Shown one piece after another: positions 33,058 through 40,923 of a stretch of DNA of 40,937 nt. Each line of letters begins with the position of its first letter. Positions within the stretch are counted from its first letter, which is position 1. The notes under the pieces were generated by a model. The model saw nothing but the letters and a program-made list of their open reading frames with translations, had not been told where the DNA came from and did no database searches. The translations under genes were made by a program, and so were the position numbers. Where the stretch lies: assembly GCF_031181185.1 (NCBI RefSeq), contig NZ_JAPSKZ010000010.1, forward strand, positions 1 to 40,937, in the 5' to 3' direction. The stretch is from Phenylobacterium sp. Lineage in GTDB: Bacteria; Pseudomonadota; Alphaproteobacteria; Caulobacterales; Caulobacteraceae.

Positions 33058-34209
33058 TCAAACCTTGCGGACGTACTTGTGGGGGACGAACGGGGTCTTC
33101 ACGACCTCGCAGGCCTGGGCCTTGCCGCGGACCAGGACCTTCAGCTTCGTCCCCACCTCGGAATGGATCGGCGGCACGAAGGCCAGCGCGATGCCGTAGC
33201 GCAGGGTGGGCGAATAGCCGCCCGACGTGACGACCCCGACCACCTTGCCGGCCTCGTCGGCCACCTCGGCGCCCTCGCGGGCGGGGGCGCCTTCCAGCAC
33301 CTTGAGGCCCACGCGGATGCGGGACGGCCCCTCGGCCAGCTCCTTGGCGATGCGGGCCGCGCCCGGGAAGTCGCGCTGCTCGCGGCGGTTCTTGTTGATG
33401 GCGAAGGTCAGGCCCGCCTCGACGGGGCTGACGGTCTCGTCCAGGTCGTGGCCATAGAGCGGCAGGCCGGCCTCAAGGCGCAGGCTATCGCGCGCCCCCA
33501 GGCCGATCGGCTTCACCCGCTCGTCGGCCAGGAGCTGGTTCCAGACGGTGGTGGCGGCGTGCGCCGGGACCGAGATCTCGAAGCCGTCCTCGCCGGTGTA
33601 GCCCGAGCGCGAGACGATGCAGTCGACGCCGAAGCCCTGGCAAAGGCGGGCGTCCATGAAGGCCATGGCGACCACTTCGGGGATGTGGACCTTCAGGGCC
33701 TCCACCGCCTGGGGGCCCTGGATGGCGATGAGGGCGCGGTCCTCCAGGCGCTCGATCTGCACCTGCGGGCCCAGCTCGCCCTCGATGACCTTGAAGTCGT
33801 TGTCCTTGCAGGCGCCGTTGACCACCACGAAGAGGCCGTCGTCCCCCGAGCCGTCGATGGCGACGGGCCGGGCGGCCATCAGGTCGTCGACGATGCCGCC
33901 GTTGCGGTTCAGCAGGACCGAATACTTCTGGCGGCCGGGCTTCAGGCCGATGAAGTCGCCCGGGACCACCTCCTCGAAGGCGGCCAGCGGGGCCACGCCG
34001 CGCAGGCGCGCCTGGCCCATGTGCGAGACGTCGAACAGGCCGGCGTGCTCGCGGCACCACAGGTGCTCCTTCATGACGCCGTCGGCGTACTGGACGGGCA
34101 TGGAGTAGCCGGCGAACGGGACCATGCGCGCGCCCAGCGCCACGTGGGTCTCGGTGAGCGGCGTGGTCTTCAGGACCGTTTCGGGCGGCAGTTCGGACGG
34201 GCTGGACAT
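33058..34209 (-). CDS. gcvT: aminomethyltransferase (glycine cleavage T protein)
   Basis: 383 residues. T protein transfers the aminomethyl carbon to tetrahydrofolate and releases ammonia. Family sequence is clear: [61 protein letters not shown] and [20 protein letters not shown]. The ATG at 34209 gives [20 protein letters not shown]. It is the first gene after the glycine riboswitch, whose second aptamer ends about 72 bases upstream, leaving space for the expression platform. Confidence 0.97.
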
Positions 34210-34478: not shown

Positions 34479-34664
34479 TTGGCGCGAACCTCGTTGAAGG
34501 GGCGGGGAGAGTCAACGGGGGATGAGGGAGGCGTGGGGACGCAAGGAGGGGGCCTTGGCCGGCTGCCTAGAAGCGGACGTTCCGGACAATCGGCGAGGCA
34601 CGCCCGTTCCGGGTCGGGAGAGGACGTTTGGACGGTCCGGCCGTTCCGTCGTCGCCTGGCGCCC

Positions 34665-35435
34665 TCAGTATCGGATCCACACGTCGCGGCCCAGGCTGAT
34701 CGGCGCTGACGGGTCGAAAGGCTTGACCAACCGCGCCCGCACCTGCCCTGGCGTGTCGGTCGTCTCGACCTCAACCTCCGCGCCAAAGGCCGAGACACAG
34801 CGGAAGCGGTCCCCTTCGATCGGCTCGCAGCGCCGCCGCTCGAGGTGCTGGTCGGCCGTCGCGCGTTTGACCGGTCCCAGCGCAAGATAGAGTTCGCCGC
34901 CTTTGCCCTTGTCGATGGCGACGAAGAGGTCGGTCGCCGGGAACGCCGTCCGGTCGGCCGTTAGCAGAGTCACCGCGGCGTCGGCGGGCACACTCGGTCC
35001 CTTCACCGCCGGTCCGCCGAAGTAGGACGCGCCCCCGACGCTCTGCGTCAGGTGATAGGTGGCCTCGAACCGGCCGTCTCCATCCAGGTCGACGACGCAG
35101 CCCTGCAGCGAGAAGAGGCGCGGCTCCGGCGGCCCGCACCATGCCTTGCGGCCGTCGCTGGAAACGGCGGCGAACACCAGCATCTCGGCGCCTTTCCCAA
35201 GCTTCAGGCCTGCCGGATTCTGCAGGCGTGCGACCTGCCGTGGCTTGAGGAAGACGCGCGCCACGGTGTCCCGCATCCCGACCGTGACAGGCGGGCCGAC
35301 CTCCGAGGCTTCAAAGCTCAAGGGGACCGCGAAGCGCAGCAGGTTGGGCGCCTTCGGCGCGGCGCTCGCATCGGCCGCCGAGAGCGACAGGGCGCAGGCA
35401 AGCATAGCGCCCAGGGAGTACTTGCGTTGCTTCAT
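34665..35435 (-). CDS. secreted protein of unknown function, 256 aa
   Basis: ATG 35435 is preceded by a perfect AAGGAGG on the minus strand and opens a signal peptide (MKQRKYSLGAMLACALSLSA, then ADASA). The mature protein is beta-rich, with VTVGMRDTVARVFLKPRQVA and a GCVVDLDGDGRFEATYHLTQ stretch resembling a calcium-loop (D-L-D-G-D-G). Four Cys in the mature region (CGPPEP, GCVVD, RRCEP, RCVSA) could form two disulfides. It ends ISLGRDVWIRY. I do not recognise a family. It is transcribed away from the riboswitch region as a single gene. Confidence 0.75.
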   Translation of the reverse strand: MKQRKYSLGAMLACALSLSAADASAAPKAPNLLRFAVPLSFEASEVGPPVTVGMRDTVARVFLKPRQVARLQNPAGLKLGKGAEMLVFAAVSSDGRKAWCGPPEPRLFSLQGCVVDLDGDGRFEATYHLTQSVGGASYFGGPAVKGPSVPADAAVTLLTADRTAFPATDLFVAIDKGKGGELYLALGPVKRATADQHLERRRCEPIEGDRFRCVSAFGAEVEVETTDTPGQVRARLVKPFDPSAPISLGRDVWIRY

Positions 35436-35681
35436 GCCGCCTCCTTGGCCGATGGAGGTTAGCCTCGCAACTTGTCGTCGCAACGGCGTTGGCGCCGCAT
35501 TTGGTCGCCTGAGAGCCAGGAGCGGACGCTGGATCGCACGCCAAAAGCAGGCCGTGCTTGCCGCTTGGCTGATCAGTGCCGCTTGAGCCACAGTAGAGCC
35601 GTGGGCAAGTACGATCTGTTCCGCCGGCTGCCGTGCGCGAAGAGAAGGGAAAGTTAAGCCCAGCGGTACTGAGAGGCGTCC

Positions 35682-36335
35682 ATGAGACTCGCACCGGGTC
35701 AGAGCGTGAGCATGACCGAAGCTACCGACGTGGCGCTCCGTTGCCCGCATTGCCGCCATACCGGCGTTTTCTTCCCCGTCCAGGACGGGTGGGACACGCG
35801 TTGGTGGGAGTCAGTGGGAGACGACATGGAGAAGCGTGCGGCGGGGGCACGTGTCTGCCCGAATCAGGACTGCGGGGGCATCGTCTTAGTCGTGATGCAC
35901 GAGAAAGAGCTCGTGGAATCCTTCCCACCGGAAATGATTGATTTCGATGCGACGGCTCTACCTGAGCGGCTGCTTGCTACACTGGAAGAGGCGGCCAGGT
36001 GTCACGCTGCGGGTGCCTACCGGGCATGCGCCTTGATGGTGCGGCGACTTCTTGAGGAGCTTTGCGATGACCGGAAGGCCGACGGCGCGAACCTGAAGGC
36101 TCGGCTCAGCAGTCTCGGTTCAGCAAACCTAGTTCCTACCGAACTGTTGGAGGCGGCAGATGAACTAAGGATTCTCGGGAACGACGCGGCGCATATCGAC
36201 GGGAAATCTTACGACAACATCGGGGCGGACGAATGTGAGGCTGCACTAGAACTCGCCAAGGAACTGCTCAAGGCCGTCTACCAATACAATGCTCTCCTAG
36301 ACCGTCTTCGCGCCCTGAAGAAATCACGAGATTGA
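35682..36335 (+). CDS. DUF4145-type protein with N-terminal zinc ribbon
   Basis: 217 residues from ATG 35682 (GAGAGG seven bases upstream). Residues 21-24 (C-P-H-C) and 59-64 (C-P-N-Q-D-C) form a likely zinc ribbon. The DUF4145 helical domain follows from about residue 95: HAAGAYRACALMVRRLLEEL and LRILGNDAAH, then a closing helix AALELAKELLKAVYQYNALL. DUF4145 is common beside restriction systems and in mobile defence islands, but its activity is unknown. Base and codon usage here are more AT-rich than in the core genes upstream, which suggests acquisition. Confidence 0.75.
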   Translation: MRLAPGQSVSMTEATDVALRCPHCRHTGVFFPVQDGWDTRWWESVGDDMEKRAAGARVCPNQDCGGIVLVVMHEKELVESFPPEMIDFDATALPERLLATLEEAARCHAAGAYRACALMVRRLLEELCDDRKADGANLKARLSSLGSANLVPTELLEAADELRILGNDAAHIDGKSYDNIGADECEAALELAKELLKAVYQYNALLDRLRALKKSRD

Positions 36336-36415
36336 CTCGGCCAGTGTAGGTCTAGCCACCACCTAGCGCCAGGAAGGGACATTCAACCTGCGGCGAGAAG
36401 CGGACGTAAGCGGCC

Positions 36416-36442
36416 TAGGTCCGAATCCCTATTTCACCGCCA
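36416..36442 (+). other. tRNA-Ser-like 3' end fragment, possible attachment site or relic
   Basis: The stretch ends TTTCACC-G-CCA, which fits an acceptor 3' strand, the Ser-type discriminator G and encoded CCA. Before it lies a T-arm-like TAGG-TCCGAAT-CCCTA with one base missing from the 5' stem. No 5' half (expected to start GGTGAAA) is present within 100 bases, so this is not an intact tRNA. Fragments like this mark integration ends of islands or decayed tRNA genes. Confidence 0.45.
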
Positions 36443-36444
36443 CC

Positions 36445-36466
36445 TCTGCTCGAAAAGACGAGCAGA
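36445..36466 (+). terminator. hairpin following the tRNA-like fragment
   Basis: TCTGCTCG (36445-36452) pairs perfectly with CGAGCAGA (36459-36466) around AAAAGA. It begins three bases after the CCA, where a tRNA terminator would lie, and between two convergent genes it could also end both transcripts. Confidence 0.55.
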
Positions 36467-36608
36467 TAGAGAGACTTGCGGTAGCTAAGCGGAAGCTCGT
36501 CCTGAGGCGCACCCTAAAGCTGCCGGAGCATCGCCGAAGCACAGCGGCACTGATCGGTACGCGCGACTGAGGTGACATCCTCCAGCACAGCCATAGTTAG
36601 CCGCGCCA

Positions 36609-37091
36609 TCATTCCCGACCGTCATGCCCGGCGAAAATGGCGAACAGATAGGCTGCACGTACAAACGAGGCGCTGGCCCAGACGGTCAAACCCGCCCAGC
36701 TAGCTACATAGAACAACCATGGGTCCTTGGGGCCGGGGGTTGGCTGAGCGACTAGCAACGGTACCGTCGCCAAGCAAAGTGCTGCTCCGACCCAAATCGA
36801 CACGAACGTGTAATGCACCGTCCGCCGGAAGTAGATGCTGCCTTTGGCCCGACCGAGGAAGCCTCGCTCGGCGGTGATGACGAACGTGTAGAACGTGAAG
36901 AGGAATGCCGTGAACACCGTCGCGAGCGTGAACACGCAGGTATAAAGCTCATCCACATGCCACTTGGAGCGTTCTGCGAGCGCATATGCTTGGGGCCCAG
37001 CCCACAGGGTGACTCCCATGGCAATCACCGCCAGTAGAGACGGATGATGAAGCTCCCAGGACCGTCCGGCACGTTGCGTTAGCGTCGCCAT
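36609..37091 (-). CDS. four-helix membrane protein, second gene of a two-gene unit
   Basis: 160 residues from ATG 37091 (TTG 37100 is possible). Four hydrophobic segments are evident: SLLAVIAMGVTLWAGPQAYA, YTCVFTLATVFTAFLFTFYT, YTFVSIWVGAALCLATVPLL and WLFYVASWAGLTVWASASFV, with a basic N-terminus and short loops. It starts one base after the stop of the 285-aa gene, so the two are almost certainly translated together. Small four-helix proteins coupled to a soluble partner include RexB of phage lambda; resemblance here is architectural only. No known family recognised. Confidence 0.7.
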   Translation of the reverse strand: MATLTQRAGRSWELHHPSLLAVIAMGVTLWAGPQAYALAERSKWHVDELYTCVFTLATVFTAFLFTFYTFVITAERGFLGRAKGSIYFRRTVHYTFVSIWVGAALCLATVPLLVAQPTPGPKDPWLFYVASWAGLTVWASASFVRAAYLFAIFAGHDGRE

Positions 37092-37092
37092 G

Positions 37093-37950
37093 TCAGCCAA
37101 ACTGCTTGTTTATAGCTTTCATGTTATCAGAGAACACCTTGCGCAGGAATAGCCGCCTGACCTCATAATTCTTGTCGGGCTCGCCCTCGGGAAGATCAAG
37201 CACCTGCTCCCCTTGCAGCTGCTCTTTCATGAAATTGATCATGTCATCCTCACCGCCGCCAGCGGCGTTTACTTTAAGAGCCTTCACGCCATCGACGTCG
37301 ATTAGCCCTCCGATATCTTCCAATATCTCTTGCTTCCGCAGGAACTTCTTCCGACTTTTGCCTACCGTGACTTCGATTTTGACTCGGACGCCGCCGTATG
37401 CCTCCGCGATCAGCTTCGCCCCCTGGGCAGCCGCGATGTTGGCATCATCAAGCGCTTCCAAGTTCTCTGGGCCCGCGAACGTAACTGCGAAGCCACGGGG
37501 CTCCTTCGCCAAAAACCGGTCCATCGCGTTTTTCGCGAGCACCGGGGCGAAGCCGAATATGCGGTTGGCGTTCGTGGCCGCTAGATAAAGCGCCAGGCGG
37601 CCAGCTGTGACGGAATGGATGTTCCGCTGCAGGAGAAGCACGCGGGTTGGCCGATGATATAGGTAGGCTGCAACGTGGCCGAGACCACCTTCGAGTTTGA
37701 TCGGCTTCAGACCATCTGGTCCGGTCTCAGGCGGGATGTTCTGCGTTTGAATGCGGCAGAACTCCCCTTCCAGATAGTCCCCGTCCTCCTTGCAGCGCTC
37801 CAGGCGAGCGACGACCCCCTCGCCAAGCTCTAGCTCGCGTGCCCCTGGATTGGGCTTTGCGATCACCTCAGTGAGAATGTCGGGGAAGTCGGAGACACCC
37901 CGCTCCGGCTTCGTCACTCGGAAAAATCTCGCGTGAATCCTGCTATCCAA
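37093..37950 (-). CDS. soluble protein of unknown function (possibly DUF6731-like), first gene of a two-gene unit
   Basis: 285 residues. The start is TTG 37950: no ATG or GTG lies between it and the upstream in-frame stop, and it follows a G-rich stretch. There is no signal peptide or membrane segment. Notable stretches are ARFFRVTKPERGVSDFPDIL, GDYLEGEFCRIQTQNIPPET, LGHVAAYLYHRPTRVLLLQR and LALYLAATNANRIFGFAPVL, then a basic KIEVTVGKSRKKFLRKQE region. From memory this resembles proteins labelled DUF6731, with low certainty. Composition is AT-richer than the core genome. Its tight link to a four-helix membrane protein suggests a sensor-effector pair, possibly defensive. Confidence 0.7.
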   Translation of the reverse strand: MDSRIHARFFRVTKPERGVSDFPDILTEVIAKPNPGARELELGEGVVARLERCKEDGDYLEGEFCRIQTQNIPPETGPDGLKPIKLEGGLGHVAAYLYHRPTRVLLLQRNIHSVTAGRLALYLAATNANRIFGFAPVLAKNAMDRFLAKEPRGFAVTFAGPENLEALDDANIAAAQGAKLIAEAYGGVRVKIEVTVGKSRKKFLRKQEILEDIGGLIDVDGVKALKVNAAGGGEDDMINFMKEQLQGEQVLDLPEGEPDKNYEVRRLFLRKVFSDNMKAINKQFG

Positions 37951-38140
37951 GATCGCCCCCCGGCACCTTACAACCTGTACCTGCTAAACACCGTTCTACA
38001 CGTCCGCTCCGAGTCTCCAAGAGCCACTCATCGCAGACCTCGCTTCAGGTGGTCGCGGCGCACTTCCGCCGCTCGAAGCTTGGACCAATTTGGCTATCGC
38101 GGCACTAGCCAGCTGATCCTGACGCGGCTGCCGTAGCGCG

Positions 38141-38233
38141 TCACTCCTTTGACCGCATTGCACATGCAAGCGCGGCAATGGCGGTGATCAATGCTGCGAG
38201 CGCGTTGAGAAGTTCGGGAGTAAGGGGGATCAT
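38141..38233 (-). CDS. possible 30-aa single-helix microprotein
   Basis: ATG 38233 to TGA 38141 encodes MIPLTPELLNALAALITAIA and a basic MRSKE end: one clean hydrophobic helix with a short charged tail, like small membrane toxins or regulatory peptides. The Shine-Dalgarno is weak (CAGG). A TTGCCT...CATAAT pair lies just upstream on the minus strand. It is on the same strand as, and 190 bases ahead of, the two-gene unit. Confidence 0.35.
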   Translation of the reverse strand: MIPLTPELLNALAALITAIAALACAMRSKE

Positions 38234-38510
38234 TTTGCCTGAACCATTATGTAAGTGGGTTAAGGCAACGGGGTCGCGTTCTGGCGGAAATGACCGTTTT
38301 CGAACCACTTTGAGCACAGCCGGCGAAGGTGAGGCATTTTGGTGAGGCGTGACTCACGCCATCTCCGAGACACCTTTGCGATACCTGTGAGGCGCTCTTT
38401 GCGCGGCACTCGGAGCTAAACCTCCGAACGCGAGGAGTCAGCGCGGAACCTAACAAAGCGAAGCTTCGCTGCACCGCCGCCGAGCGGACCCTGCGAAGGT
38501 CGCCAATGAT
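38234..38510. other. intergenic region with a dyad and short repeats
   Basis: No convincing gene. GTGAGGC occurs three times (near 38328, 38343 and 38386). A perfect 7+1+7 dyad, GGCGTGA-C-TCACGCC, lies at 38346-38360 and could be an operator. Together with the repeat copy at 38511-38661, this makes a gene-free stretch of about 470 bases up to the lipoprotein. Confidence 0.4.
38346..38360. repeat. 15-base dyad symmetry element
   Basis: GGCGTGA and TCACGCC flank a single C. The symmetry is perfect but too tight for an RNA hairpin, which favours a protein-binding operator over a terminator. Confidence 0.4.
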
Positions 38511-38661
38511 CACCAGCAGACCTTAGCCGCTCGGGCGGCCGGCTCTCGGATCTTCCAGCCTCGCCTTCCGTCCGGCCCGGTCGAGGACAAGCCGCATCGC
38601 GGCAGCCTGCGGCCATCCTGGACATGGCCCGGCCGGAAGGGTCAGTTGGCTGCCGTGGGAT
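38511..38661 (+). repeat. ~155-bp imperfect direct repeat, copy 1
   Basis: Starts CACCAGCAGACCTTAGC and ends CTGCCGTGGGATC. The best-conserved part is CTGCGGCCATCCTGGACATG followed by GCCCGGCCGG. Copy 2 lies 570 bases downstream in the same orientation, flanking the small lipoprotein gene. It does not look coding. Confidence 0.75.
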
Positions 38662-38704
38662 CCATGGTGGGGCGGCGCCCCGAGGCGCGGGTGGGGGAGC
38701 GAGG

Positions 38705-38926
38705 ATGAGGCGGGCGGCGTTCGGAGCCTTGGCGGGGCTCCTCAGCCTGGGATGGCTCGCGGGCTGCGCGACGAGACCTGCCGACGGCGCCTATGTGGAG
38801 CGCGACAGGACGGCATGTACGCACATGGCGGCGGGGAACATGTCGGACGCCGTCGTGCTGGAACTCCGGCGCGATGGATCCTGCCTGGTCCAGCTGGCGC
38901 CTGTGGCGGGCCCCTTCAGGCCCTGA
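38705..38926 (+). CDS. small lipoprotein, 73 aa
   Basis: ATG 38705 after GGAGCGAGG opens a lipoprotein signal (MRRAAFGALAGLLSLGWLAG) with lipobox WLAGC and lipidated C21. The mature part has two more Cys (RTACTH, GSCLVQ) and the pattern VLELRRDGSCLVQL, like a short beta hairpin. The longer frame from 38624 is rejected because it would run out of the repeat copy. Family unknown. It lies between the two repeat copies. Confidence 0.6.
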   Translation: MRRAAFGALAGLLSLGWLAGCATRPADGAYVERDRTACTHMAAGNMSDAVVLELRRDGSCLVQLAPVAGPFRP

Positions 38927-39080
38927 CGCGACGGACGTCGGGTTCGCGCTCGATCGGACGAGACATCTTGCCCGTAGCCGGCCAGGCTGACGCGTTCGTG
39001 GCGTTCCACCAGCTCCTCTTGAAATGCGCGGACCCTGATAACCCTGCGGACGTCGGACCCTCCGGAGGTTAGCTTAGAGA

Positions 39081-39238
39081 CACCAGCGGACCTTAGCGGT
39101 TCGGGGGGCGGCTCTCGATCTTCCGGCCTCGACGCCAGCCTGACGGGCGGGCCAAGTCAAGGACAGGCCGCTTCGCGGTGGCCTGCGGCCATCCTGGACA
39201 TGGCCCGGCCGGCAGGCTCGGTGAGCTGCCGTGAGATC
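39081..39238 (+). repeat. ~155-bp imperfect direct repeat, copy 2
   Basis: Starts CACCAGCGGACCTTAGC and ends CTGCCGTGAGATC; CTGCGGCCATCCTGGACATG is identical to copy 1. The copies differ by substitutions and small indels elsewhere, so the duplication is not recent. This accounts for most of the gene-free 38927-39279 interval. Confidence 0.75.
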
Positions 39239-39279
39239 AACGGCGGGCTGGCATCCTGGCGGATGTTCCAGCCAATGGA

Positions 39280-39942
39280 TCAGGAAGGCTCACTCTTCAC
39301 GTCGCCGCGACGCATCATGCGACGGTGAGCGAACCATCGCGCCACGGCTGCGCGTCGCTGTGCGTCGGCGCCGGTGTAGGCATGCCGTAAGGAGCCAGCG
39401 TCGATGCGCAGCGTCACGCGCTCAGACATGCTGTCTATGGGGTTCAGGAGGGTGTGCAAACGGCGGTGTAGGCGGCTTCCCGCTTCATACGGTTCTTCGT
39501 GGAGAGGTTGTTGTCCCATCGCGCTGAGATCGTCTCGCACGGTCCGTAGGACGATGAGGGTGCGCCCAACCAGGTCAAGCACGTCTGCTGCCGTGGTGCG
39601 CTGAAGCATCAACTCCAGCGTCATGATGCTCGCGTCTATGGTCCGGGCATGGCCGCTGAGCTTGGCGCCGTCCAACCTGCCCGAATTGGCAATTGGCTGA
39701 AGCCAGTCATACAAGCGCGTCACCGCTGAGAGGGCGATTTCACAGGCCTCGGCTGCCTGAGCCGTGGCTTCGTCCGCAGCCTTGGAGGCTGCTCTTTCTT
39801 GCCGGCGGGGGACGTGAAGCGCCGTCCACACCACGGCCGCGTTCACGACGACGCCGAGAAAGGCCGCGACCACACCGGGCAAGGCTGCGTCCGCCTGCCG
39901 AACCGCAGCTATTGTCGAAATAAGTTCTTCGCTTCCGCCCAC
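39280..39942 (-). CDS. membrane-anchored helical protein of unknown function
   Basis: About 220 residues from GTG 39942, preceded by a G-rich Shine-Dalgarno-like stretch; ATG 40011 would add 23 residues without a ribosome-binding site. One membrane helix (PGVVAAFLGVVVNAAVVWTA) lies near the N-terminus, followed by a basic patch (PRRQER) and a long, mainly helical cytoplasmic domain, with VTRLYDWLQPIANSGRLDGA and TIDASIMTLELMLQRTTAAD. It ends RRGDVKSEPS. I do not recognise it. It diverges from the terminase-like gene. Confidence 0.6.
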   Translation of the reverse strand: MGGSEELISTIAAVRQADAALPGVVAAFLGVVVNAAVVWTALHVPRRQERAASKAADEATAQAAEACEIALSAVTRLYDWLQPIANSGRLDGAKLSGHARTIDASIMTLELMLQRTTAADVLDLVGRTLIVLRTVRDDLSAMGQQPLHEEPYEAGSRLHRRLHTLLNPIDSMSERVTLRIDAGSLRHAYTGADAQRRAAVARWFAHRRMMRRGDVKSEPS

Positions 39943-40122
39943 AGTTCCCCCCGGAAGGCCAATGCCTGTGCGCAATGAACGCGCCGTGCGGAGGGGGCAA
40001 GCTGTTCCCATTTTGTTCTTGACTTGCGCGCGCGTTTGTGGGAGGATTGCGGCAGCGTGCGGAGGTGCGGCCGGTGGGCCCCTTGCCGCGCTTTCCGAAC
40101 ATCATCACGACGAGGATTGGCG

Positions 40123-40923
40123 ATGGCCAAGGGCAAGCGGCGTCCGCTGTGGCGGGCGCCGGCGGCGGACGGCCGCCGTGTGTATGTGCGCTATTCGGCC
40201 GAGCTGGCGGTGCGGCTGCTGGAGCGGATCGCGGCGGGCGAGCTGGTCTACCGGATCTGCCAGGAGCCGGGGATGCCGACGCCCGAGGCGATCTCGAAAT
40301 GGGCGCGCGAGAAGCCGGACTTCGCCGAGGCGCTGCGGGCGGCGCGGACGCAGGGCGGGCGGCCCTGCGGGGTGCGGGGGCAGCCGTTCGGCCTGTGCGA
40401 GGCGACCGCCCAGGCGATCTTCGAGCGGCTGTGCGAGGGGGAGAGCCTGACGAAGATCGGGGCGGACCCGGCGATGCCCTCGCTCTCGACGATCTTCTAC
40501 TGGCGCCGGCGCTTCCCCGAGTTCGAGGAGGCGGTGCAGACCGGCAAGCGCATCCAGGCCGAGATGTGGGCCGACAAGGGCTGGGAGCTGGCCGAGGCGG
40601 CGACGCCGCAGACGGCCTATGCGGTCGAGGTGCAGCTGAAGCAGCTGCGCTGGATGGCGGGGGTGAACGCGCCGAAGGTCTATCGGATCAAGCCGGTGGA
40701 GCCCGACGTCCCGCAGGAGAAGCTCGACATCCTGATGCGCATCTTCAAGATCGAAGAGGACCCGGTGACCGGCAAGGAGCGGGTGGTCGCCTATTGCCCG
40801 AACCCGGACACCGGCGCCGTCGAGCGCGAGGATGTCACGCGCTGGCGGCCCGGGCCGAACCAGATCCCGATGCCGGGCGGCGGCATGCGGTGGGCGCCGC
40901 CGCCGCCGGAGGAGAAGGGCTAG
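40123..40923 (+). CDS. phage terminase small subunit-like DNA-binding protein
   Basis: 266 residues from ATG 40123 (GAGGA upstream). It contains two helix-turn-helix units of the Sf6/Gp1 small-terminase type: LLERIAAGELVYRICQEPGM then PTPEAISKWAREKPDFAEAL, and IFERLCEGESLTKIGADPAM then PSLSTIFYWRRRFPEFEEAV. The second is followed by the family's helical QIKQLRWMAGVNAPKVY-type tail (here LKQLRWMAGVNAPKVYRIKP). Small terminases select phage DNA for packaging. A Pro/Gly-rich C-terminus ends the protein 14 bases before the window edge. It may mark a prophage remnant or phage-derived regulator; the next gene is outside the window. Confidence 0.8.
   Translation: MAKGKRRPLWRAPAADGRRVYVRYSAELAVRLLERIAAGELVYRICQEPGMPTPEAISKWAREKPDFAEALRAARTQGGRPCGVRGQPFGLCEATAQAIFERLCEGESLTKIGADPAMPSLSTIFYWRRRFPEFEEAVQTGKRIQAEMWADKGWELAEAATPQTAYAVEVQLKQLRWMAGVNAPKVYRIKPVEPDVPQEKLDILMRIFKIEEDPVTGKERVVAYCPNPDTGAVEREDVTRWRPGPNQIPMPGGGMRWAPPPPEEKG

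Follow-up and report, generated by a model that had tools for sequence, protein, structure and literature searches.

Introduction

In the RexAB-type defence of phage lambda, the infected cell is thought to shut down via its membrane, and the trigger of lambda RexAB is still unexplained. The available text of PMC12894663 calls lambda RexAB the first abortive-infection (Abi) system and counts only five RexAB-like systems described by 2026. The same source describes RexABpp (PP_5643/PP_5644) of Pseudomonas putida prophage P1, in which a gene for a soluble protein and a gene for a protein with four transmembrane segments (4TM) lie below a CI-like repressor gene. Both genes are needed for defence; RexApp binds DNA, RexBpp damages the membrane, and overproduction of RexApp triggers the membrane damage by RexBpp (PMC12894663). 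The reported mass of PP_5643 (37.5 kDa) includes a tag, and we liken RexABpp to our pair from its published description.

The layout of a soluble protein followed by a 4TM protein is also found in CarolAnn gp44-gp43 and Sbash gp30-gp31 (DUF4747, Rex-like defence). Sbash gp31 loses its defence function when residues of its central loop are substituted (PMC6426596), and PMC13373217 already counts DUF4747/CarolAnn among the immune operon types. Here we compare with these systems a gene pair whose soluble member belongs to the DUF6731 family.

Results

A soluble and a four-helix membrane protein in the window

We analysed 40,937 nucleotides of Phenylobacterium sp. (contig NZ_JAPSKZ010000010.1, positions 1 to 40,937), called the window hereafter. 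A preliminary description of this DNA had reported two minus-strand ORFs, one base apart in AT-richer DNA among accessory genes, encoding a 285-aa soluble protein and a 160-aa protein with four membrane segments, and had proposed that they might be an analogue of RexA/RexB. Sequence, hydropathy and GC content confirmed the two ORFs as described:

37093-37950, minus strand: soluble DUF6731 protein, 285 codons, TTG start; proposed RexA-type sensor
36609-37091, minus strand: membrane protein, 160 aa, ATG start, four segments; proposed RexB-type effector
37089-37095, minus strand: gene junction, consisting of the TGA of the soluble gene, one base and the ATG of the membrane gene

The TTG start of the soluble ORF corresponds to the N-terminus of most homologues, which also begin M-D, while the membrane ORF has an alternative in-frame TTG nine bases further upstream that would yield 163 aa. 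Hydropathy of the membrane ORF has four maxima, at residues ~19-37, 49-67, 97-115 and 136-154. The GC content of the pair is 58.4% compared to 69.4% for the window; in 500-base steps it is 56-62% across 35.5-38.5 kb and 64-71% in the flanking steps. The sizes (285/160 aa) are close to those of lambda RexA/RexB (279/144 aa) and the gene order is the same, whereas rexA and rexB are separated by 15 bases and the genes of DUF6731 pairs by one base or an overlap.

The soluble protein matches PF20505 (Pfam DUF6731) with 53.7 bits (cut-off 27) over residues 47-229, and two PHROGs phage families of unknown function, phrog_10865 (E 9.9e-10) and phrog_7651 (E 0.003). The membrane protein matches no family above the cut-off in Pfam, NCBIfam or PADLOC, so the metabolic relationship that would have spoken against the preliminary description was not found. 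In PADLOC-DB 2.0 the soluble protein matches no family, and the only match of the membrane protein (PDC-M67B, E 0.022) was judged to be a chance one, as were weak matches to MatE (Pfam, under the cut-off) and NF006939 (NCBIfam). Neither window protein matches the Pfam models of RexA (PF15969) or RexB (PF15968) at E up to 1, while lambda RexA and RexB themselves match these models strongly. Likewise, the soluble protein has no match to the DUF4747 model (PF15931): DUF6731 is the only family that Pfam reports for it up to E 1. Profiles of both proteins have no relevant sequence match among solved structures.

The accessory islet around the pair

We then investigated the surroundings of the pair, where the following features were located:

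34540-40003: accessory islet of ~5.46 kb holding the pair, where blocks shared with four relatives break off
35682-36335, plus strand: DUF4145 gene (PF13643, 61.3 bits; PADLOC PD-T7-4, E 4.3e-10; phrog_1305, E 4.4e-19)
40024-40923, plus strand: small-terminase-like gene with a match to the Sf6-type small terminase

The shared blocks stop at 34.45-34.54 kb in four relatives and resume at about 40003 in two of them. In one of these relatives (G011) ~420 bases lie between the two blocks, and in another (G025) the right-hand block is inverted. The pair therefore sits in an accessory islet of ~5.5 kb that is absent at this site from four relatives, in agreement with the accessory neighbourhood described before. 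Counting the window's own genome and one weak match, gcvT (33058-34209) is matched in 28 of the 30 genomes searched in the genus, and the pair is absent from 27 loci flanking gcvT (26 with a clear gcvT and one with a weak one; flanks of at most 1.5 kb, E up to 1e-6). The soluble gene was found in none of 99 relatives, 59 of which belong to the same genus.

The DUF4145 gene is convergent with the pair, lies inside the same AT-rich stretch and is possibly a second defence gene of the islet. Its likeness to PD-T7-4 is the PADLOC match given above, but it is a separate convergent gene, and joint action with the pair is not in evidence. Two other islet ORFs, 34665-35759 and 39280-40011 (both on the minus strand), have no credible Pfam or PHROGs matches; a weak match of the latter to IL28A (Pfam) was judged to be chance. 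The terminase-like gene first seemed to mark the edge of a prophage. However, its homologues adjoin gcvT in two of the four relatives with long flanks (G011 and G025, with 53% and 41% identity, inverted in one; not in G009 or G010), so we dropped it as evidence for a prophage origin of the window copy. This phage-type gene appears to be resident at a chromosomal site. No prophage was recognised around the window copy, which lies in a chromosomal islet.

Conservation of the pair across genomes and viruses

Homologue searches, own copy included, found 49 soluble proteins and 22 membrane proteins. The two lists were made separately and share contigs of 41113 (the window's own), 27788, 33009, 17253, 15410 and 141458 nt, indicating that the two genes co-occur. 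A tally gave the same answer, bearing out the conservation together that the preliminary description had expected of a functional pair. A four-segment ORF of 138-166 aa lies directly downstream at 21 of 22 DUF6731 loci, compared to 1 of 201 control ORFs, the controls being other mechanical ORFs of at least 200 aa from the fetched loci, which need not be genes. The rule accepted ORFs of 100-200 aa with at least four hydrophobic segments whose start fell between 60 bases ahead of the stop and 200 bases past it. One base separates the two window genes; at the remaining 20 passing loci the earliest start allowed by the rule falls from 58 bases before to 3 after the last base of the soluble gene. 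At L042, the one locus that failed, the 140-aa partner has only two segments above the stricter hydropathy threshold; it scores 155 with the partner profile and was added by hand to the partner profile used in the profile comparison. Some membrane partner is thus present at all 22 loci counted. These loci are not independent, since L010 and L033-L039 look alike, and the searches covered viral collections, which is why 13 of the 22 are viral entries.

Five loci were left out of the 22. L030 and L031 carry the same protein and partner as L015. The match of L006 (E 2.7e-4 across 66 columns of an 822-aa frame) and the weak match of L014 (internal stop, below the cut-off) were judged to be chance. 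L013:1139-1860 is a decayed DUF6731 copy, with an internal stop and a score below the cut-off, and a 116-aa membrane ORF with three segments still lies downstream.

DUF6731 scored over the cut-off in 6 of 398 genomes of the phylum (own genome included) and in 2 of 369 genomes of one class (one already counted), with two further matches below the cut-off. The eight matches over the cut-off in both surveys comprise the own copy and one genome twice, hence six other genomes. All six carry the partner gene, and these partners are 8-20% identical to that of the window. Two named relatives of the soluble protein with 42-44% identity, from a Rhodospirillales metagenome-assembled genome and Methylobacterium terricola, are each accompanied by an overlapping membrane ORF. 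The DUF6731 gene and the four-segment gene form a real two-gene unit. A tblastn search with the soluble protein gave no match in the phage or plasmid collections, and a plasmid search using the L009 protein gave nothing. No viral contig was found with alignment A1; viral relatives surfaced with the more distant alignments A7 and A8.

Genomic contexts of the relatives

In Pseudomonas phage AUS531phi, the pair follows immediately on a CI-type repressor gene, giving the order S24 repressor, DUF6731 and membrane protein. The AUS531phi membrane gene is annotated with 118 aa and would then lack the first segment, while an earlier in-frame start gives four segments. The available text of the AUS531phi paper (PMC7546807) did not contain the text terms that we sought. 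The viral contig L040 shows the same order, which in both cases is that of lambda cI-rexA-rexB. A repressor gene is also found a few ORFs upstream of the pair in L032 (S24) and in L041 and L009/L053 (HTH_3). Among the ORFs listed, no CI-type repressor was seen beside the window copy, nor beside L010 and its look-alikes L033-L039. By eye, L033-L039 resemble lambdoid regions. Other signs of phage are a Mu-like I protease gene adjoining the pair in L056 (the L012 locus) and a phage integrase gene 8 kb from the pair in L054 (the L010 locus). L053 (the L009 locus) and L055 (the L011 locus) are phage-like by eye; Pfam gave nothing for the single L055 gene checked and only a weak HTH match for one L053 gene.

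The preliminary description had regarded stable housekeeping contexts of the homologues as an argument against defence. The homologues have a patchy distribution and many are carried by phages, but L007 and L008 (two of the six sampled genome loci; the L008 contig has just 4.2 kb) have no phage genes and ordinary chromosomal neighbours. In L008:92-2286, DUF6731, 4TM and rdgC (PF04381, 351 bits) genes are consecutive on one strand. RdgC is a structural relative of RexA according to PMC11077077. The co-location with rdgC may be meaningful or a matter of chance.

Remote similarity to DUF4747, RexA and RexB

We then compared profiles built from 87 DUF6731 sequences, 43 of their partners, five DUF4747 proteins, five DUF4747 partners, four RexB and five RexA. 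The DUF4747 set includes CarolAnn gp44 on the word of PMC6426606, where a weak HHpred match is given. All E-values below are for single comparisons. The DUF6731 and DUF4747 profiles aligned over 217 columns with a probability of 76.6 and E 2.1e-5 (score 43.5 compared to 14-17 for reversed profiles, with reversed probabilities of 0.2-0.4), and the two partner profiles aligned over 143 columns with a probability of 60.9 and E 8.2e-5 (reversed control, 1.0). The window protein misses the DUF4747 Pfam model, so this relation is seen by profile-profile comparison alone. At the DUF4747 loci L047-L050, a membrane ORF lies directly downstream in 4/4; hydropathy gives four segments in three of them and five in the longest L048 frame. 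A repressor-like ORF upstream of the L047 genes, recognised by eye, corresponds to the lambda order.

The partner profile aligned with RexB with a probability of 32.9 and E 4.6e-4 (score 28.5 compared to 21-22 reversed; reversed probabilities 5.3-6.4), the alignment covering TM2 and the central loop. DUF6731 and RexA reached a probability of 4.6 (score 25.2 compared to 18-20 reversed; reversed probabilities 0.7-1.3). With smaller alignments the probabilities were 6.8 and 8.7 for RexA and 15.8 for RexB. The DUF4747 set had a probability of 0.0 with RexA and its partners 0.2 with RexB; the published link between DUF4747 and RexA was thus not reproduced.

Ranking tests were run against backgrounds of mechanical ORFs from the fetched loci, which need not be genes. 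The DUF6731 profile placed three of the five DUF4747 proteins and lambda RexA at ranks 1-4 of 118 (background, the first 110 of 137 soluble ORFs), Butters gp30 at 12, DUF4747 L049 at 16 and L028 RexA at 26, but CarolAnn gp44 just at 47. With the partner profile, lambda RexB came second of 36 (background, 28 membrane ORFs including one genuine partner) and third of 113 in an earlier test (background, 112 ORFs including two genuine partners), with only genuine partners above it; CarolAnn gp43 and Butters gp31 ranked 17 and 28 of 36. In the reverse test, a RexB profile ranked the membrane proteins of L015, L008, L040, L003 and the window at 1, 6, 9, 34 and 63 of 113, respectively. The profile searches proposed in the preliminary description had a mixed outcome: a link to RexB emerged and appears to be weak, whereas the Pfam models stayed silent and the apparent link to RexA is marginal. 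Its layout, its context and its kinship with DUF4747 are our grounds for calling the pair RexAB-type; we do not assign it to the Pfam families RexA or RexB.

Discussion

Judging from sequence comparisons, the pair probably serves abortive infection (phage exclusion) as a RexAB-type unit of two genes with a DUF6731 sensor. The order of a soluble and then a 4TM protein is kept far beyond the controls, phage AUS531phi and contig L040 have the repressor-DUF6731-membrane order, profiles link the pair to DUF4747, to its partners and weakly to RexB, and the distribution among relatives is patchy. The Rex-like analogue suggested in the preliminary description is thus supported.

The membrane partners provide a possible outline of the mechanism. 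Their central loop carries a net positive charge in 39 of 43 sequences and the N-terminal stretch does so in 29, while the two outer loops do so in only 2 and 6. This pattern places the N-terminus and the central loop inside the cell and, with four segments, the C-terminus as well. The best conserved segments are TM2 (2.74 bits), TM4 (2.34) and the central loop (2.27). We infer that the closely coupled genes would ensure that both proteins are made together, and that the DUF6731 protein, probably a dimer, would contact DNA or DNA-protein intermediates and so sense phage replication. It may then act on its partner via the conserved positive cytoplasmic central loop between TM2 and TM3. The membrane partner, putatively an oligomer lined by the conserved TM2, would open and let ions leak; the membrane potential would be lost, and growth and phage production would stop, excluding the phage.

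Alternatively, the roles might be reversed, as in phage Butters, for which PMC12894663 names the soluble gp30 as the effector and the 4TM protein gp31 as its restraint. The soluble protein would then be a toxic effector that the membrane partner tethers and silences until infection. The layout is the same, and close or overlapping genes would secure the supply of the restraining partner. We nevertheless consider this unlikely: profile comparison gave no match of DUF6731 or its partner to Butters gp30 or gp31, Pfam finds no enzyme domain in the soluble protein, and the peak of conservation in TM2, TM4 and the central loop fits a working channel, with which a tether is still compatible.

A role in lysogeny or prophage maintenance has also to be considered, in which the soluble protein would tune the CI/Cro switch by binding DNA, and exclusion would be secondary or absent. 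In lambda, the bias that RexA exerts on the bistable switch does not depend on RexB (PMC11077077), and several DUF6731 pairs lie behind or near repressor genes. On the other hand, no repressor was seen by eye beside the window copy, L007 or L008 (on its 4.2-kb contig), the pairs of L010/L054 and L012/L056 have no recognised adjoining repressor, and the membrane partner is never missing from the 22 loci, all of which leaves this explanation little chance. That the pair is a membrane system of another kind (Kiwa-like KwaA/KwaB, transport or stress response), unrelated to RexAB and resembling it in size and order only, is very unlikely: Kiwa, too, consists of a 4TM and a soluble protein and the direct similarity to RexA is marginal, but Kiwa has its membrane gene first, no credible match to such a system was found in PADLOC-DB 2.0 (which presumably includes Kiwa models), NCBIfam or Pfam, and the repressor-adjacent phage sites and the DUF4747 similarity indicate Rex.

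Returning to the RexAB-type unit, it is quite possible, if tentative, that sensors of the RexA, DUF4747 and DUF6731 families, together with four-helix effectors resembling RexB, make up one broad superfamily, of which lambda RexAB would be one twig. This superfamily would be widespread in the prophages of many bacteria and would also have been adopted by chromosomes in the form of stand-alone defence islets, with an RdgC-like DNA clamp as the sensor. Such a sensor, if real, would explain the row of DUF6731, 4TM and rdgC genes in L008.

The RexAB-like and DUF4747/CarolAnn operon types are already known; the DUF6731-sensor branch appears to be new. DUF6731 was not mentioned in the limited collection of literature that we searched, and PF20505 was not among the best matches there. 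The DUF6731 pair looks like a distant branch of RexAB-type defence that has apparently gone undescribed. Such a branch, which joins DUF6731 to a conserved four-helix partner and occurs both in phages and in a chromosomal islet, would add dozens of natural variants. The alignments comprise 87 sensors and 43 partners, and on these the sensor surface, pore helix and contact loop can be tested directly.
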